DNA from: an uncultured Clostridia bacterium
GTDB lineage: Bacteria > Bacillota > DTU014
Length of the DNA stretch: 64,000 bases
Direction: 5' to 3'
Assembly (NCBI GenBank): GCA_900016865.1
Contig: FIZI01000020.1
Span: forward strand, 1-64,000
This document shows, piece after piece, positions 33,616 to 62,404 of the stretch (position 1 is the first letter of the stretch; every line of letters begins with the position of its first letter). The notes below the pieces were generated by a model, which saw nothing but the letters and a program-made list of their open reading frames with translations, searched no databases and was not told the origin of the DNA. A program made the position numbers and the translations under genes.

Positions 33616-34433
33616 ACCCCCTGAGAGCCAAGAAGATCACGATGAGCAGCAGCTACACACTGCTCAACGTCTGAATCGGAGACCGTCTCTGACCAGTGTT
33701 CTCCGGGTTTGAGGTGAACCAAAAACTCGATGTTGCCCTGAGGCCCGGTTATAGGCGAAAATGTTAGAGACACAGGAGAAAGGCCGGATTGCTTCATAGA
33801 GTCGAACACAGAGAGCAACGCCTCGACATGTGTCTTTGCATCTCTGACTACGCCCTTTTTGCCAACCAGTTTTGGGCCAACCTCAAACTGCGGCTTAACG
33901 AGCACAATCAGATCAGTTGTCTCAGATGAAAACTCGTGAAGTTTGTGCGCAATTTTGGACAAAGAGATAAACGAGACGTCAACGGTGATTACATCAAGGG
34001 AATCGGCTATAGCTGACCTCTCAAGATAGCGAAAATTAGTCTGCTCCAACACGACCACTCGTTCATCGCACCGAAGCTGCCACGCGAGTTGGCCCTTGCC
34101 TACGTCTACTGCGTACACTCGCTTAGCACCCCGCTGGAGAAGGCAGTCTGTAAACCCGCCGGTCGAAGCGCCTACATCCATAGCCACTTTATTCTCTACA
34201 TCGACTCCGAACACCTCTAGCCCCTTTTCCAATTTATGTCCGCCACGCGAGACATACCGCGGAGACCGTGGCCTCAATTCGATGAGAGACTCAACAGGGT
34301 AACGCATTCCCGGTTTGGTTGCAGCCACGCCGTCTACAAGCACTTCGCCTGCTATGATCATGCGCCTTGCTTCTTCCCTTGATTTCACCAATCCGCTCGA
34401 GACTACTAGTATATCAAGACGTTCCTTGTCCAA
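33612..34433 (-). CDS. tlyA: TlyA family rRNA (cytidine-2'-O)-methyltransferase
   Basis: A 273-residue protein with an N-terminal S4 RNA-binding domain (RLDILVVSSGLVKSREEARR) and an FtsJ-type methyltransferase (VAMDVGASTGGFTDCLLQRG; catalytic-type Lys in YVSRGGHKLEKG and VLVKPQFE). The family methylates ribosomal RNA; older annotations call it hemolysin A. The start is TTG at 34433, eight bases after AAGGG, overlapping the dxs end by 20 bases. The dxs-tlyA-nadK-argR-recN order is conserved in Firmicutes. Confidence 0.94.
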   Translation of the reverse strand: MDKERLDILVVSSGLVKSREEARRMIIAGEVLVDGVAATKPGMRYPVESLIELRPRSPRYVSRGGHKLEKGLEVFGVDVENKVAMDVGASTGGFTDCLLQRGAKRVYAVDVGKGQLAWQLRCDERVVVLEQTNFRYLERSAIADSLDVITVDVSFISLSKIAHKLHEFSSETTDLIVLVKPQFEVGPKLVGKKGVVRDAKTHVEALLSVFDSMKQSGLSPVSLTFSPITGPQGNIEFLVHLKPGEHWSETVSDSDVEQCVAAAHRDLLGSQGV

Positions 34434-36369
34434 CTTCCTCACCCTTAGCCTGAAGCGGCAACAACCCCTCGTGAACCGGTGCTGTTGCACCTAACGGAGC
34501 GAGCAGCTCAAGGACTCTGGCAGCTACACTCTCAGGATCCAGCCCGAACTCCCGCAGCAGCCTATCCCTGCTCCCATGTTCTACGAATACCCTCGGTATT
34601 CCTAGATTCAGGACTCGGGCTTTTTTCGAGCCCGGTAGTTGAGCAATGATCTGGGCTATCGCACTCCCCATTCCACCCTCAATGCATCCTTCCTCCAAGG
34701 TGACGATGGGCATCCTCCTTGCAGCTATGTCCAATATAGTCTTGCGGTCGATCGGCGAGGCAAAGCGCGCATCAACCACAGCGCACGACACGCCAGACTC
34801 AGCTAGTCTACTGGCGGCTGCCTCAGCCACGGGCGTCATTGAACCAAGTGAGATCAGAACGACGTCTGTCCCATTGATGATAGTCTCTGCACGGCCATAG
34901 ACGATTGGCGCCCTTTGCTCTCGCCTTGGCTGTGGGCTTGTCCCTTTGGGATACCTGATAGCTACGGGCCCGTCGAACGAGAGAGCGAACTTGAGCATAG
35001 CTGTCAGTTCCTCACGATCTCTCGGAGCCAAAACGGTCATGTTGGGGATATGTCTCAGGAAGCATATGTCAAATATCCCCTGGTGAGTCTGGCCGTCTTC
35101 TCCAACTATGCCTGCCCTATCGATTGCAAACACAACGGGCAATCCGAGGATACAGACATCATGCATTATCTGGTCGTAGGCACGCTGCAGGAAAGTAGAG
35201 TACACTGCGACAACCGGGCGCAACCCCGCCTTCGCCAGCCCTGCTGCAAGTGCCACTGCATGGCTTTCAGCGATCCCAACATCAAAAAATCTCTCGGGGA
35301 ACTCCACTGCAAACCGCTCCAAACCGGTGCCGGCTGTCATAGCTGCGGTGATTGCCACTATGTCTTCCGACTCGCCAGCAAGCCCCACCAACGTTTCGCC
35401 GAATACTTGCGTAAACGTAGGCTCACTAGGAGGGCTCAGCTCTATCAGGTCCCCGCTCTTAAGCTCAAACGGACCGACTGAGTGGAAACGTTCCGGGTTG
35501 GACTCCGCGTGCTCGTACCCTTTTCCTTTTGTGGTTGCAACATGGACCAGGACCGGGCCACCTCTCCTTCTCGCATCAGAAAGCGACCGAGTCAGCCCTG
35601 GGATGTCGTGCCCTTTCACCGGCCCTATGTACGTGAATCCAAGCTCTTCGAACATCGTAGGAACGACAAGATACTTGATGCTGCCCTTGACGCGGGTGAC
35701 TAGATCCGACATCGTTGATCCAATAGCAGGAATGCGGCGGATGAGCTCTTCTATGTCTTCCTTGACTCTAACTACTCCAGGGTTCAGACGAATGCGGGTG
35801 AGACACGACGCGAGCGCACCTACATTGGGAGAGATAGACATCTCGTTGTCATTGAGGACTACTATGAGGTCGGTCTTGAGGTGGCCTGCATGGTTCAAAG
35901 CCTCGAAAGCCATGCCGCCAGAAATCGAGCCGTCGCCTATGACACACACAACAGAGTAGTCCTCGCCCCTTAGGTCCCTAGCCTTCGCCATGCCGAGTCC
36001 AATGCTTATTGACGTGCTGCTGTGGCCTGCGACAAATGCATCGTGTTCGCTTTCGGTGGGTTTAGGAAATCCACTTATGCCACCGTATTGGCGCAATGTG
36101 TAAAAGAGATGTTTACGGCCGGTAACAAGCTTGTGGACATAGCATTGGTGTCCTACGTCCCAGATGATGCGGTCGCGAGGGCTGTCAAACACTCTGTGCA
36201 GGGCCAGAGTAAGCTCAACCACCCCAAGATTGGGTGCAAGATGGCCTCCTGTAACGGCTACAGTATTGATGATCTCCTGCCTCAGCTCCTCTGCGAGAGC
36301 TGCAAGAGTTGGGTTGTCCAGTGCCTTCAAGTCTTGCGGACCGGATACACGATCCAATATCCTACCCAT
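34414..36369 (-). CDS. dxs: 1-deoxy-D-xylulose-5-phosphate synthase
   Basis: A 651-residue TPP enzyme that joins pyruvate and glyceraldehyde-3-phosphate in the first step of the MEP isoprenoid route. It has HLAPNLGVVELTLALH, DVGHQCYVHKLVTGR, the TPP motif CVIGDGSISGGMAFEALN and the transketolase segment AIDRAGIVGEDGQTHQG. The ATG at 36369 overlaps the oapA stop (TGATG), with GAGGAG eight bases upstream. It lies downstream of the OLE RNA and OapA, with ispA on the other side, so an isoprenoid context surrounds the RNA. Confidence 0.98.
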   Translation of the reverse strand: MGRILDRVSGPQDLKALDNPTLAALAEELRQEIINTVAVTGGHLAPNLGVVELTLALHRVFDSPRDRIIWDVGHQCYVHKLVTGRKHLFYTLRQYGGISGFPKPTESEHDAFVAGHSSTSISIGLGMAKARDLRGEDYSVVCVIGDGSISGGMAFEALNHAGHLKTDLIVVLNDNEMSISPNVGALASCLTRIRLNPGVVRVKEDIEELIRRIPAIGSTMSDLVTRVKGSIKYLVVPTMFEELGFTYIGPVKGHDIPGLTRSLSDARRRGGPVLVHVATTKGKGYEHAESNPERFHSVGPFELKSGDLIELSPPSEPTFTQVFGETLVGLAGESEDIVAITAAMTAGTGLERFAVEFPERFFDVGIAESHAVALAAGLAKAGLRPVVAVYSTFLQRAYDQIMHDVCILGLPVVFAIDRAGIVGEDGQTHQGIFDICFLRHIPNMTVLAPRDREELTAMLKFALSFDGPVAIRYPKGTSPQPRREQRAPIVYGRAETIINGTDVVLISLGSMTPVAEAAASRLAESGVSCAVVDARFASPIDRKTILDIAARRMPIVTLEEGCIEGGMGSAIAQIIAQLPGSKKARVLNLGIPRVFVEHGSRDRLLREFGLDPESVAARVLELLAPLGATAPVHEGLLPLQAKGEEVGQGTS

Positions 36370-37034
36370 CAACTGATCTCCTCTGTGCTAGCTCGGGCTT
36401 CGCGCTTCTCGTTCTTAGACTTGCCCGTTCGCCTATCCTTTTTTCTCCGTTTGAAGGAGTTGACAAGCGGGCCTAGCCTAAGTGTGGTCTCGATGAAATA
36501 GATCACCCTCCCGACAACCATCAATACTCTCACATAGTTATGTATTGCCATGCTCTTGCAGTAGGCCTTCCCACCGACAGTAACCGCCGCGGTAGTGGCA
36601 AGAAGCACTGTATTGACTGCATCCAGGGTAGCCTGACGTGTATTGGATGCGATCTGAAAGACGATGGTTGCTACGACAGCGCCGCTTAGGGTCCCACATA
36701 TGTCTCCAACGACGTCATTGCAGAAGTTGGCGACAGCGTCAGCTGCATGCACTACTCTCAAAGCTTCCTTGGCACCCCGCACTCGCTCGGATGCCATGGC
36801 TGTAAAAGGATCGGGTTGAGCTGCAGCGGCAGCTGTTCCAACCAAGTCAAAAACTATGCCGATGAGAACTATCGCAAGGAGAACCAATACAGACTGGAAT
36901 AGGCCTAGCTGGCTGAGTGCGGAGATCGAGCCGAAGTTCAGCAAGGCACTCAAAAAAAACGTCCATGATCCAACGATCAGGACTCGTCGCAACTTGGAAG
37001 TTGATGTTCGCATCGTCAGGCTAAGAACCCCCAT
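36369..37034 (-). CDS. oapA: OapA, OLE RNA-associated membrane protein
   Basis: A 221-residue integral membrane protein encoded directly after the OLE RNA. It has hydrophobic stretches at roughly 17-40, 46-68, 112-130, 137-153 and a weaker one at 167-182, and a very basic tail (about 194-214). A conserved-looking NFCNDVVGDICG segment gives the Asp107-x3-Asp111 pair that matches the DxxxD motif known for OapA. The family is known to bind OLE RNA and bring it to the membrane; that role is assumed here from position and motif. The start is uncertain: ATG 37034 has no clear ribosome site, and ATG 37013 is possible. Its stop overlaps dxs. Confidence 0.82.
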   Translation of the reverse strand: MGVLSLTMRTSTSKLRRVLIVGSWTFFLSALLNFGSISALSQLGLFQSVLVLLAIVLIGIVFDLVGTAAAAAQPDPFTAMASERVRGAKEALRVVHAADAVANFCNDVVGDICGTLSGAVVATIVFQIASNTRQATLDAVNTVLLATTAAVTVGGKAYCKSMAIHNYVRVLMVVGRVIYFIETTLRLGPLVNSFKRRKKDRRTGKSKNEKREARASTEEIS

Positions 37035-37064: not shown

Positions 37065-37748
37065 CGCCTGACGGAGAATCCTTGCCGGTTATGTAGTGGG
37101 TGATGCCGAGTGGCAGCATCCTGAGTAAACATTGTGGCATTAGGTCTAGTAGGTTTTCCCCACCCGGTATCCGTCGTCGCCGAACGGACGGTTTCCCTTT
37201 ACACCAAGCGTCCCGCTGTCGCCAAACGAGAAACTAGATCGCCTGTAAGCCACACCCTAATCCTCAGGATGCCCCGCAATATGCGGACAGTCTAGGAGTT
37301 TTCCTCATCGTCTCCTGTCGGTTCCTAGCCTCTTTTGCAGTGCCTGCTTCACCTGGCAATAGGCCAAGATCCCTGGCCAAAGGATCAAGGCTTGAACCCA
37401 AGTTCCCACAGGGACCGCTCAAGGCAGGCTACACTACACCCAGCCCTGTTAGGTGCCCTCTCAGGCCGGACCGGCATGTAGGTTCTCCCCACGCCGTGGA
37501 TCCTCCGTGCGAAACACAAGAGTGTGAATCACCGGCCTCACCACGAACGTGGGTCTCCGCGAGGGCAGGGTCAACGCCCGCATGCCATTGCGGATCGCCC
37601 CACCCTCTTAACCCCCAGCACTAACCCCCGACTGGGCGTCAAGAGCCAGCACCAGGGACTTCATCGTTGTGCCCTCTGGCGGATTTTTAGCCCCGCCTTC
37701 AGAACCGATGAAGCCGACTAGAATACTGCGCCACCCAAGCGTAACGCA
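37065..37748 (-). ncRNA. ole: OLE RNA (ornate, large, extremophilic RNA)
   Basis: About 680 bases without a credible ORF, between the PAP2-like gene and oapA and transcribed toward oapA. Many complementary segments fit a large folded RNA: a 5' hairpin (37745-37751 with 37724-37730), a long-range 8-bp helix CGATGAAG/CTTCATCG (37706-37713 with 37659-37666) enclosing GGCGG/CCGCC (37678-37682 with 37693-37697), and others toward the 3' end. Known OLE RNAs are about 600-700 bases, lie just before oapA, and are flanked by ispA and dxs; all three hold here. A sigma-A promoter is just upstream. The 5' end is set by that promoter; the 3' end is approximate. In other bacteria OLE forms a membrane ribonucleoprotein linked to stress tolerance. 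Confidence 0.87.
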
Positions 37749-37753
37749 GTAAT

Positions 37754-37782
37754 ATTATAACATAGGCCCGGCTTGCCATCAA
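37754..37782 (-). promoter_or_regulatory. Sigma-A promoter of OLE RNA
   Basis: TTGATG (37777-37782), a 17-base spacer and a perfect TATAAT (37754-37759) on the minus strand, predicting a start near 37748, at the base of the first hairpin of the RNA. The RNA can therefore be made independently of the upstream operon. Confidence 0.85.
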
Positions 37783-37849: not shown

Positions 37850-38293
37850 CTACGAAGTCATGATAACGCTTACTGCCACTCCCAACGCCGCACCGGCCAG
37901 CACCTCAACAGGGGTATGGCCTAGGAGTTCACGCAATCGGTTCTCCCGAATGCGGCCTGAATGAAACAGTTCGTCGACGATGTGGTTGAGGACCGCAGCT
38001 TGCTTTCCAGCTGCTCGCCGAATCCCGGCTGCATCGTACATGACAACCAATGCAAACCCTAGAGCAAGGGCAAATAAAGCGCTGTCAAAGCCTGCTTCGA
38101 TACCGATAGCCACGGCAAGTGATGACGTGAAAGCAGAGTGCGAACTAGGCATTCCACCCGGGCCTGTAAGTCTACGGAAATCGATCTTTCGGTGTCTCAC
38201 GTAGTGTGTCAGTACTTTGAGCACCTGTGCAATCAGCCATGATACCGTAGATGATATGAGTGCAGGATTCTGTATCATGCCTGACACATGCAA
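37850..38293 (-). CDS. Divergent PAP2 family (DUF212) membrane protein
   Basis: A 147-residue membrane protein of the YuiD/DUF212 group, related to PAP2 acid phosphatases. The motif trio is present: GGMPSSHSAF (where PAP2 has PSGH), RRAAGKQAAVLN, and LLGHTPVEVLAGAALG. Four hydrophobic helices are likely. The substrate could be a polyprenyl diphosphate, which would suit the neighbouring ispA, but that is inference. The start is TTG at 38293, eight bases after AAGGAGGT. It lies between ispA and the OLE RNA, whose promoter starts about 70 bases after its stop. Confidence 0.87.
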   Translation of the reverse strand: MHVSGMIQNPALISSTVSWLIAQVLKVLTHYVRHRKIDFRRLTGPGGMPSSHSAFTSSLAVAIGIEAGFDSALFALALGFALVVMYDAAGIRRAAGKQAAVLNHIVDELFHSGRIRENRLRELLGHTPVEVLAGAALGVAVSVIMTS

Positions 38294-38324: not shown

Positions 38325-39233
38325 CTAGCGATCCCGAGTCGCCGCGTAGTCTAGTATCTCACTAAGGAGCGTATTGGACAATCCTTCGGCAGCAAGCGCT
38401 TCGTGGCCGCTTGCGACAGCCTCGAGCATCAGCCGTTGCGACTCTTCCATGCCAAAGACTGCCGGATAAGACGCTTTCTTCTTGCTATAGTCAGAACCGA
38501 CACGCTTTCCCAAAGCAGCCTCATTGCCGATAACGTCGAGCATGTCGTCCCTAATCTGAAACACGAGACCCAGAGCCCTTGCGTAAGCGCTGAGCGAGGA
38601 CAAGACTCTATCAGAGGCACCGGACAAAATAGCCGCTGCCCTGACAGCAGCCAAGAATAAAGCTCCGGTCTTGGCAGCGTGAATAGACCGCAGGAGGTCG
38701 ACACTGACATCTGCTGCCCCAGTACTGGCTATGTCAAGTGCCTGCCCGCGGACCATGCCTTCAGGGCCCGCTCCGACTCCGATTTCTTCGATACACCTCA
38801 GCAGCCGGTCGTGGGTAACCGGCGGACTTATCGGCATTCCTGCCAGTGTCACAAACGCCAGGGTCAGGAGTCCATCGCCTGCAAGAACAGCCATTGCTTC
38901 GCCAAAGACGCGATGGTTTGTCGGCATGCCCCTTCGCAAGTCATCGTCATCCATACACGGCAGATCGTCGTGAATGAGCGAATACGCGTGGATCATCTCC
39001 AATGCGCAGGCTGCATCCAGCACATGAGCGTGTGAGCCAAAAACCACGTCTGCTACTGCAATCATCAATACCGCGCGCAACCGCTTGCCACCTGAGAGCA
39101 GTGAGTATCGCATTGCTTCGTAGATGCGCGCCGAATCGTCCCGGCTCGGCCTGACAAGCTCATCCAGCCGCTGTTCTACCTCTGACTTGCAGGCCTTCAT
39201 GAACTGAAGCAAGCCAGTATTACTCTGCTTCAT
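38325..39233 (-). CDS. ispA: Farnesyl diphosphate synthase
   Basis: A 302-residue short-chain polyprenyl synthase that condenses IPP with DMAPP and GPP. The first Asp-rich motif is DDLPCMDDDDLRRG, with the longer DDx4D spacing of bacterial FPP synthases, and the second is FQIRDDMLDVIG. The lysine-arginine segment SGGKRLRAVL is present. GGGGGAGG lies before the ATG, which overlaps xseB by 14 bases. With dxs it brackets the OLE locus; the product feeds quinones, undecaprenyl phosphate and the MiaA donor pool. Confidence 0.96.
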   Translation of the reverse strand: MKQSNTGLLQFMKACKSEVEQRLDELVRPSRDDSARIYEAMRYSLLSGGKRLRAVLMIAVADVVFGSHAHVLDAACALEMIHAYSLIHDDLPCMDDDDLRRGMPTNHRVFGEAMAVLAGDGLLTLAFVTLAGMPISPPVTHDRLLRCIEEIGVGAGPEGMVRGQALDIASTGAADVSVDLLRSIHAAKTGALFLAAVRAAAILSGASDRVLSSLSAYARALGLVFQIRDDMLDVIGNEAALGKRVGSDYSKKKASYPAVFGMEESQRLMLEAVASGHEALAAEGLSNTLLSEILDYAATRDR

Positions 39234-62185: not shown

Positions 62186-62214
62186 TTGCCAAGTGCAAGC
62201 TGCTGTTGTATCAT
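62186..62214 (+). promoter_or_regulatory. Sigma-A promoter of the FMN riboswitch-ribU unit
   Basis: TTGCCA (62186-62191), a 17-base spacer and TATCAT (62209-62214). The predicted start near 62221 lies about 15 bases before the aptamer, as expected for a riboswitch leader. Confidence 0.65.
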
Positions 62215-62235: not shown

Positions 62236-62381
62236 CAGGTACCTTCGGGGCAGGGTGAGACTTAGAAGTCAACTCCCGACCGGCGGTGATGGCTCCTTGG
62301 CCTAAGTCCGCGAGTCCAGTGATCTGGGTTGATCTGGTGAGATTCCAGAACCGACGGTACAGTCCGGATGAGAGAAGGTTT
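62236..62381 (+). promoter_or_regulatory. FMN riboswitch (RFN element)
   Basis: All hallmark blocks of the RFN aptamer are present in order: ACCTTCGGGGCAGGGTG, AACTCCCGACCGGCGGT, AGTCCGCGA, the TGATCTGGTGAGATTCCAG helix, ACCGACGGTACAGTCCGGAT and the closing GAGAAGG. It binds FMN. The downstream hairpin at 62405-62438 would be the expression platform, so FMN should stop transcription into ribU. Confidence 0.96.
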
Positions 62382-62404
62382 CCATGTCTCATGCATGTTC
62401 TTTG

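Follow-up and report, generated by a model that had tools for sequence, protein, structure and literature searches.

A predicted extended −10 sigma-A promoter directly ahead of the OLE RNA in a clostridial gene row, and its recurrence across ole loci

The OLE RNA found in the window, i.e., the whole stretch of 64,000 nucleotides analysed here, lies within a row of protein-coding genes transcribed in the same direction, which raises the question of where transcription of the RNA starts, what marks its 5′ end, and whether its promoter serves the RNA alone or the neighbouring genes as well. On the minus strand, the order is polyprenyl synthetase, DUF212, promoter (37782–37754), OLE RNA, oapA and dxs, as follows:

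38325–39233 (−), polyprenyl synthetase (ispA-like)
37850–38293 (−), upstream gene, DUF212 / divergent PAP2 family
37094–37750 (−), OLE RNA (RF01071), model positions 1–616, Rfam 478.6 bits, E 2.4e-137
36369–37034 (−), oapA, OLE-associated membrane protein gene, with a weak CNNM match under the Pfam cut-off
34414–36372 (−), dxs, overlapping the end of oapA

The RNA belongs to the RF01071 family by a full-length match whose 478.6 bits largely exceed the gathering score of 50. Compared to the Rfam model, it contains an insertion of 19 nt at 37466–37448 (−) and, at 37539–37501 (−), 39 nt instead of 17. The longest oapA frame opens 59 nt past the end of the OLE model, and its match to the CNNM family, at 21.2 bits for a cut-off of 28.4, although weak, agrees with the description of OapA as a CNNM/MpfA relative in the available text of PMC11332333. 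The adjacency of oapA and ole is general among the 53 loci L001–L053, the window's own included, since a tblastn relative stands beside OLE in all 53.

A first-pass annotation had reported a near-consensus promoter, TTGATG and TATAAT separated by 17 bases, immediately before the RNA, and direct reading of the minus strand confirms both hexamers, at 37782–37777 and 37759–37754, respectively. An additional TATG, absent from that description, occurs upstream of the −10, so that the elements of the promoter and of the region that follows it can be listed as:

37777–37782 (−), −35 element TTGATG, read directly, identical in the same-family relative L057
37761–37764 (−), −16 region TATG, extended −10 of the TRTG type, read directly
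37754–37759 (−), −10 element TATAAT, 17-nt spacer from the −35, read directly and found in scans
37747 (−), start of transcription predicted from promoter geometry, a G located 7 nt beyond the −10 with a tolerance of about 2 nt
37735–37747 (−), 13-nt variable leader at the 5′ end of the predicted RNA; model positions 1–16 are unpaired and weakly conserved
37716–37734 (−), highly conserved OLE 5′ core GTGGCGCAGTATTCTAGTC, with the inner 13-mer GCAGTATYCTAGT
37745–37751 (−), hairpin 5′ arm TACTGCG, four of its seven bases preceding the predicted start
37724–37730 (−), hairpin 3′ arm CGCAGTA, within the conserved OLE core

The site thus combines the features of an extended −10 sigma-A promoter, namely both hexamers, a spacer of 16–18 nt and a TG placed one base before the −10. 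In a simple scan, it matches the consensus at 10 of 12 positions, and the surrounding 5 kb contain 3 loose sites for 2.4 expected, so that the bare count of weak sites is uninformative. A weighted sigma-A score is more discriminating: at 18.4, the site ranks at the top of the 7 sites scoring at least 16 over the window, both strands included, and ten dinucleotide-shuffled windows contained on average 1.5 sites of at least 16 and none reaching 18.4. Two of the other sites closely precede known kinds of RNA: TTGCCA-17-TATACT (score 17.7), whose −10 ends at 722 (−), lies about 25 nt ahead of a tRNA gene (697–623 (−)), and the promoter-like TTGCCA-17-TATCAT (score 16.2), whose −10 ends at 62214 (+), about 23 nt ahead of an FMN riboswitch (62237–62383 (+), a match of 102.3 bits), which suggests that the weighted score finds real starts.

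The conservation of the promoter was assessed in two sets of ole loci. RF01071 was present in 284 of the 398 genomes of the phylum searched and, in a separate search covering largely the same genomes, in 47 of 61 relatives. The first set comprised 148 loci, 53 from the searches and 95 picked from match lists; the picking skipped some loci that lay at the end of a contig or closely resembled one already included, and retained mostly better-scoring OLE matches, so that the sample is non-random. The 13-mer GCAGTATYCTAGT was found with 0, 1 and 2 mismatches in 129, 18 and 1 of these 148 loci, and the separate removal of 3 loci with short upstream DNA and 16 near-duplicates left 129 loci for analysis. 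The second set was gathered by searching proteins with an alignment of OapA; among the matches listed, out of 569 confirmed relatives, 80 loci were kept, all from titled genome records and many of them from Bacilli. A core-like match (at most 3 mismatches) occurred in 79 of the 80, enough upstream DNA was available in 75, and 68 were new with respect to both the first set and each other. The anchors of three of them, L149, L154 and L161, are not OLE cores, and their exclusion leaves 65 loci, and 194 in the combined set. Counts made on 68, 157 or 197 loci, like the terminator scan and the tally of sites of at least 14, include these three, and the folding of 145 loci may include L149; no count is altered by more than one hit and three loci. 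The genomes G117, G152, G183, G214, G234 and G265 each gave between two and four separate OLE hits, with a best E-value much weaker than usual; these could correspond to split contigs, ole insertions or extra copies.

Within the 200 nt before the core, a site of at least 16 occurs in 111 of the 129 first-set loci, compared to 4.1 expected from dinucleotide shuffles and 2 loci on the reverse strand. The second set behaves similarly, with 50 of 68 loci, where base shuffles predict 1.9 and the reverse strand gives 3, or 49 of 65 once the three false anchors are removed. Among the 194 combined non-redundant loci, 156 possess such a site within 120 nt of the OLE 5′ core, and the last 50 nt before the core account for 140 of 194 on the sense strand vs 3 of 194 on the opposite strand. 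In the profile of 197 loci, the other 50-nt bins contain 0–7 loci each, save for 19 loci in the −100 to −50 bin, and the bins inside OLE contain 0–2 loci with a strong site. Of the 38 loci devoid of a site of at least 16 within 120 nt, 31 have one of at least 14, which provides weak support since this lower score is common by chance (49.5 of 129 in the shuffled expectation over 200 nt).

The weighted scorer rewards TG, TATAAT and TTG, and the composition at these places is accordingly in part selected, as applies to the scored T and G of the extended −10, each found in 96% of 157 family sites. No such selection affects the counts of exact motifs or the unscored bases ahead of the TG. Between −80 and −8, the sense strand carries an exact TGNTATAAT in 128 of 194 loci and the antisense strand in none; in the corresponding controls on 197 loci, a far-upstream window gave 1 sense and 2 antisense occurrences, and the inside of OLE 0 and 0. 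Among the 128 loci with TGNTATAAT, a TTG is found with a spacer of 17 in 82 and of 18 in 20 (102 of 128 together), while the 11 other spacers tested gave 0–6 each. The unscored bases preceding the TG are a T in 80% and a purine in 92% of the 157 family sites. In L057 (genome G001), the only same-family relative found, all 14 bases of the −35, TG and −10 are identical to those of the window, compared to 9 of 15 in the remainder of the spacer. Judged from its sequence and conservation, the promoter ahead of OLE is real and occupies the same place in most of the related bacteria examined, a largely expected result, and the reading of the site as a near-consensus sigma-A promoter that would start the OLE RNA gains support.

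The qualification of this promoter as dedicated, and the idea that it would by itself produce OLE in excess over the flanking mRNAs, find no such support. Two simple scans, which miss Rho-dependent ends, found no intrinsic terminator in the window, whether in the interval from DUF212 to OLE or in that from OLE to oapA, and the intrinsic terminator that would close a single-RNA unit before the next gene is thus lacking in these scans. Across the family, the same rule, applied without a positive control and blind to Rho-dependent ends, identified an intrinsic terminator upstream of OLE in 2 of 197 loci (shuffle expectation 0.2) and after OLE in 4 of 109 (expectation 0.0), with 2 further loci devoid of a 3′ anchor. 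The possibility that OLE ends in an intrinsic terminator, an idea derived from the U-rich end of the Rfam consensus, was discarded from the terminator scan. Strong sites between OLE and oapA are few, the +500 to +700 bins holding 0–2 of 112–197 loci. Because these scans detected no terminator around OLE, and only 59 nt separate its end from the oapA frame, the promoter probably feeds oapA and dxs too, and an internal operon promoter common to OLE, oapA and probably dxs is the simplest reading. OLE is described as highly abundant in Halalkalibacterium (Bacillus) halodurans in the available text of PMC12054373 and PMC9723947, and as processed at its 3′ end in that of PMC11332333; if the transcript is shared and unterminated, high OLE levels would also need processing and RNA stability. 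The start thus suggested to be common to ole, oapA and dxs would link the production of the OLE RNA to that of its membrane partner.

Counted from the end of the −10 at 37754, the usual distance places the predicted start of OLE transcription at G37747 ± 2, and the same geometry offers testable predicted start sites in many species. The H. halodurans OLE was located by means of the OLE1-637 forward primer given in the available text of PMC12054373, which matches exactly in 1 of the 397 genomes searched (G568, locus L230). Since the published positions 78, 83, 151, 152, 182, 183 and 637 all fit, the OLE of L230 is that of H. halodurans, a species name deduced from this agreement. L230 displays TTGAGC-17-TATAAT with a TG at the same place as in the window, and the published nucleotide 1 coincides with the last T of this TATAAT. 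A nucleotide 1 located on the last base of the −10 implies a primary 5′ end probably 7–8 nt further in, and the transcript from the L230 promoter should thus probably begin near nucleotide 8 or 9. Full-length OLE constructs may consequently carry about 7–8 nt lying outside the primary transcript, and the possible mismatch with the published numbering offers a cheap check in a model organism.

The first-pass annotation had also placed the 5′ end of the RNA at the base of a 7-bp hairpin, with a start near 37748. The arms at 37751–37745 and 37730–37724 are indeed exact complements, and a start near 37748 falls within the error of the predicted 37747; both positions, however, lie inside the 5′ arm, 37748 being three bases inward from the base of the hairpin at 37751. 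Further pairing towards the loop brings the stem to 11 pairs, including two G-U (37751–37741 with 37734–37724). The complete inverted repeat gives a stable fold (−16.8 kcal/mol, z −4.9), while an RNA starting at 37747 would retain a 7-pair stem of −10.7 kcal/mol. The hairpin could accordingly be regarded as a functional 5′ cap or operator proper to the lineage of the window, since the part downstream of the predicted start forms 7 pairs in both the window and L057 (ranks of 0.03 and 0.17 among shuffled leaders, respectively), and at least 6 leader-core pairs appear in the best fold of 70 of 145 loci. These pairs come without excess stability: over the 145 strong-promoter loci, leader-core folds are no more stable than those of shuffled leaders (mean z −0.11, sem 0.10), with a rank of at most 0.05 in 6.9% and at most 0.1 in 14.5% of the loci. 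A search for exact complementarity, which ignores G-U pairs, had given the same answer (mean longest run of 4.0 vs 3.96 in shuffled leaders, 111 loci). Moreover, the 3′ arm is contained in the highly conserved core, is unpaired in the Rfam model, and the stem would tie up this core; the comparison within the family covers a single relative. A functional hairpin is thus quite doubtful; the hairpin is taken as either coincidental at this locus or particular to the lineage, and not as a general 5′ boundary, and it is the promoter that would mark the 5′ boundary of OLE.

Two other explanations can be weighed. The TATAAT-like motif adjoins the conserved RNA, the Rfam match beginning only 4 nt after it, and might be conserved because it belongs to the RNA and not because it serves as a promoter. 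The distance that separates it from the core nevertheless ranges between 14 and 162 nt, with a median of 29, in the 111 strong first-set loci, in contrast to the fixed spacing of the −35, and the leader-core pairing does not exceed chance, which makes this explanation extremely improbable. It is also conceivable that the OLE 5′ end arises mainly by cleavage of a longer operon transcript, with a minor contribution of the promoter at 37754–37782. Such a processing would accord with the single polycistronic RNA reported for the H. halodurans cluster in the available text of PMC12265935, with the cutting of OLE by RNase P and its 3′ processing in that of PMC11332333, and with the failure of the scans to find a terminator upstream of OLE. 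The published nucleotide 1, located upstream of the possible promoter start, points in the same direction if it reflects processed longer transcripts, but it may equally be a numbering convention. Against cleavage stands the strong conservation of a promoter at the OLE 5′ boundary, with its fixed 17–18 nt spacer, and we consider it unlikely as the main source of the 5′ end.

The preferred explanation, which we hold with high confidence as a whole, is that 37754–37782 acts as an extended −10 sigma-A (housekeeping) promoter inside the polyprenyl synthetase-DUF212-ole-oapA-dxs row. Transcription would start about 7 nt after the −10, and its product would begin with a short leader of variable sequence, after which comes the conserved OLE core. 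This transcript would be uninsulated, probably extending through oapA and dxs, and transcription begun further upstream would probably cross OLE, so that the level of mature OLE would be set by the strong start together with 3′ processing and the stability of the RNP. More broadly, it is somewhat more probable than not that nearly all ole genes include a sigma-A promoter of the TRTGNTATAAT form, fused to the 5′ core of OLE, and that initiation, not processing, sets the boundary. If so, nucleotide 1 of H. halodurans would fall in the −10 box and the native primary RNA would be some 7–8 nt shorter than the full-length constructs. Such a near-universal promoter was not found described in the literature searched, most subscription papers lying outside this search.

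According to the available text of PMC9723947, which cites Ko and Altman (2007), the H. halodurans ole is located within a large operon and possesses its own promoter. A promoter proper to OLE is thus already known in kind, and what is added here is the window locus and the family-wide count. With respect to the RF01071 family, the OLE of the window is alike in its match to the full model (1–616), followed by oapA and dxs, and departs from it by the 19-nt insertion and the expanded stem, without any difference in kind. Extended −10 sigma-A promoters of Gram-positive bacteria carry a TRTGN motif, and the TATGTTATAAT of the window fits their TRTGNTATAAT, with no difference seen. The ole promoter of H. 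halodurans resembles that of the window in being an own promoter in an operon, with TTG-17-TGNTATAAT directly before OLE, but differs by its −35 element, TTGAGC instead of TTGATG, and by a distance from the −10 to the core of 21 nt, compared to 24 nt in the window.
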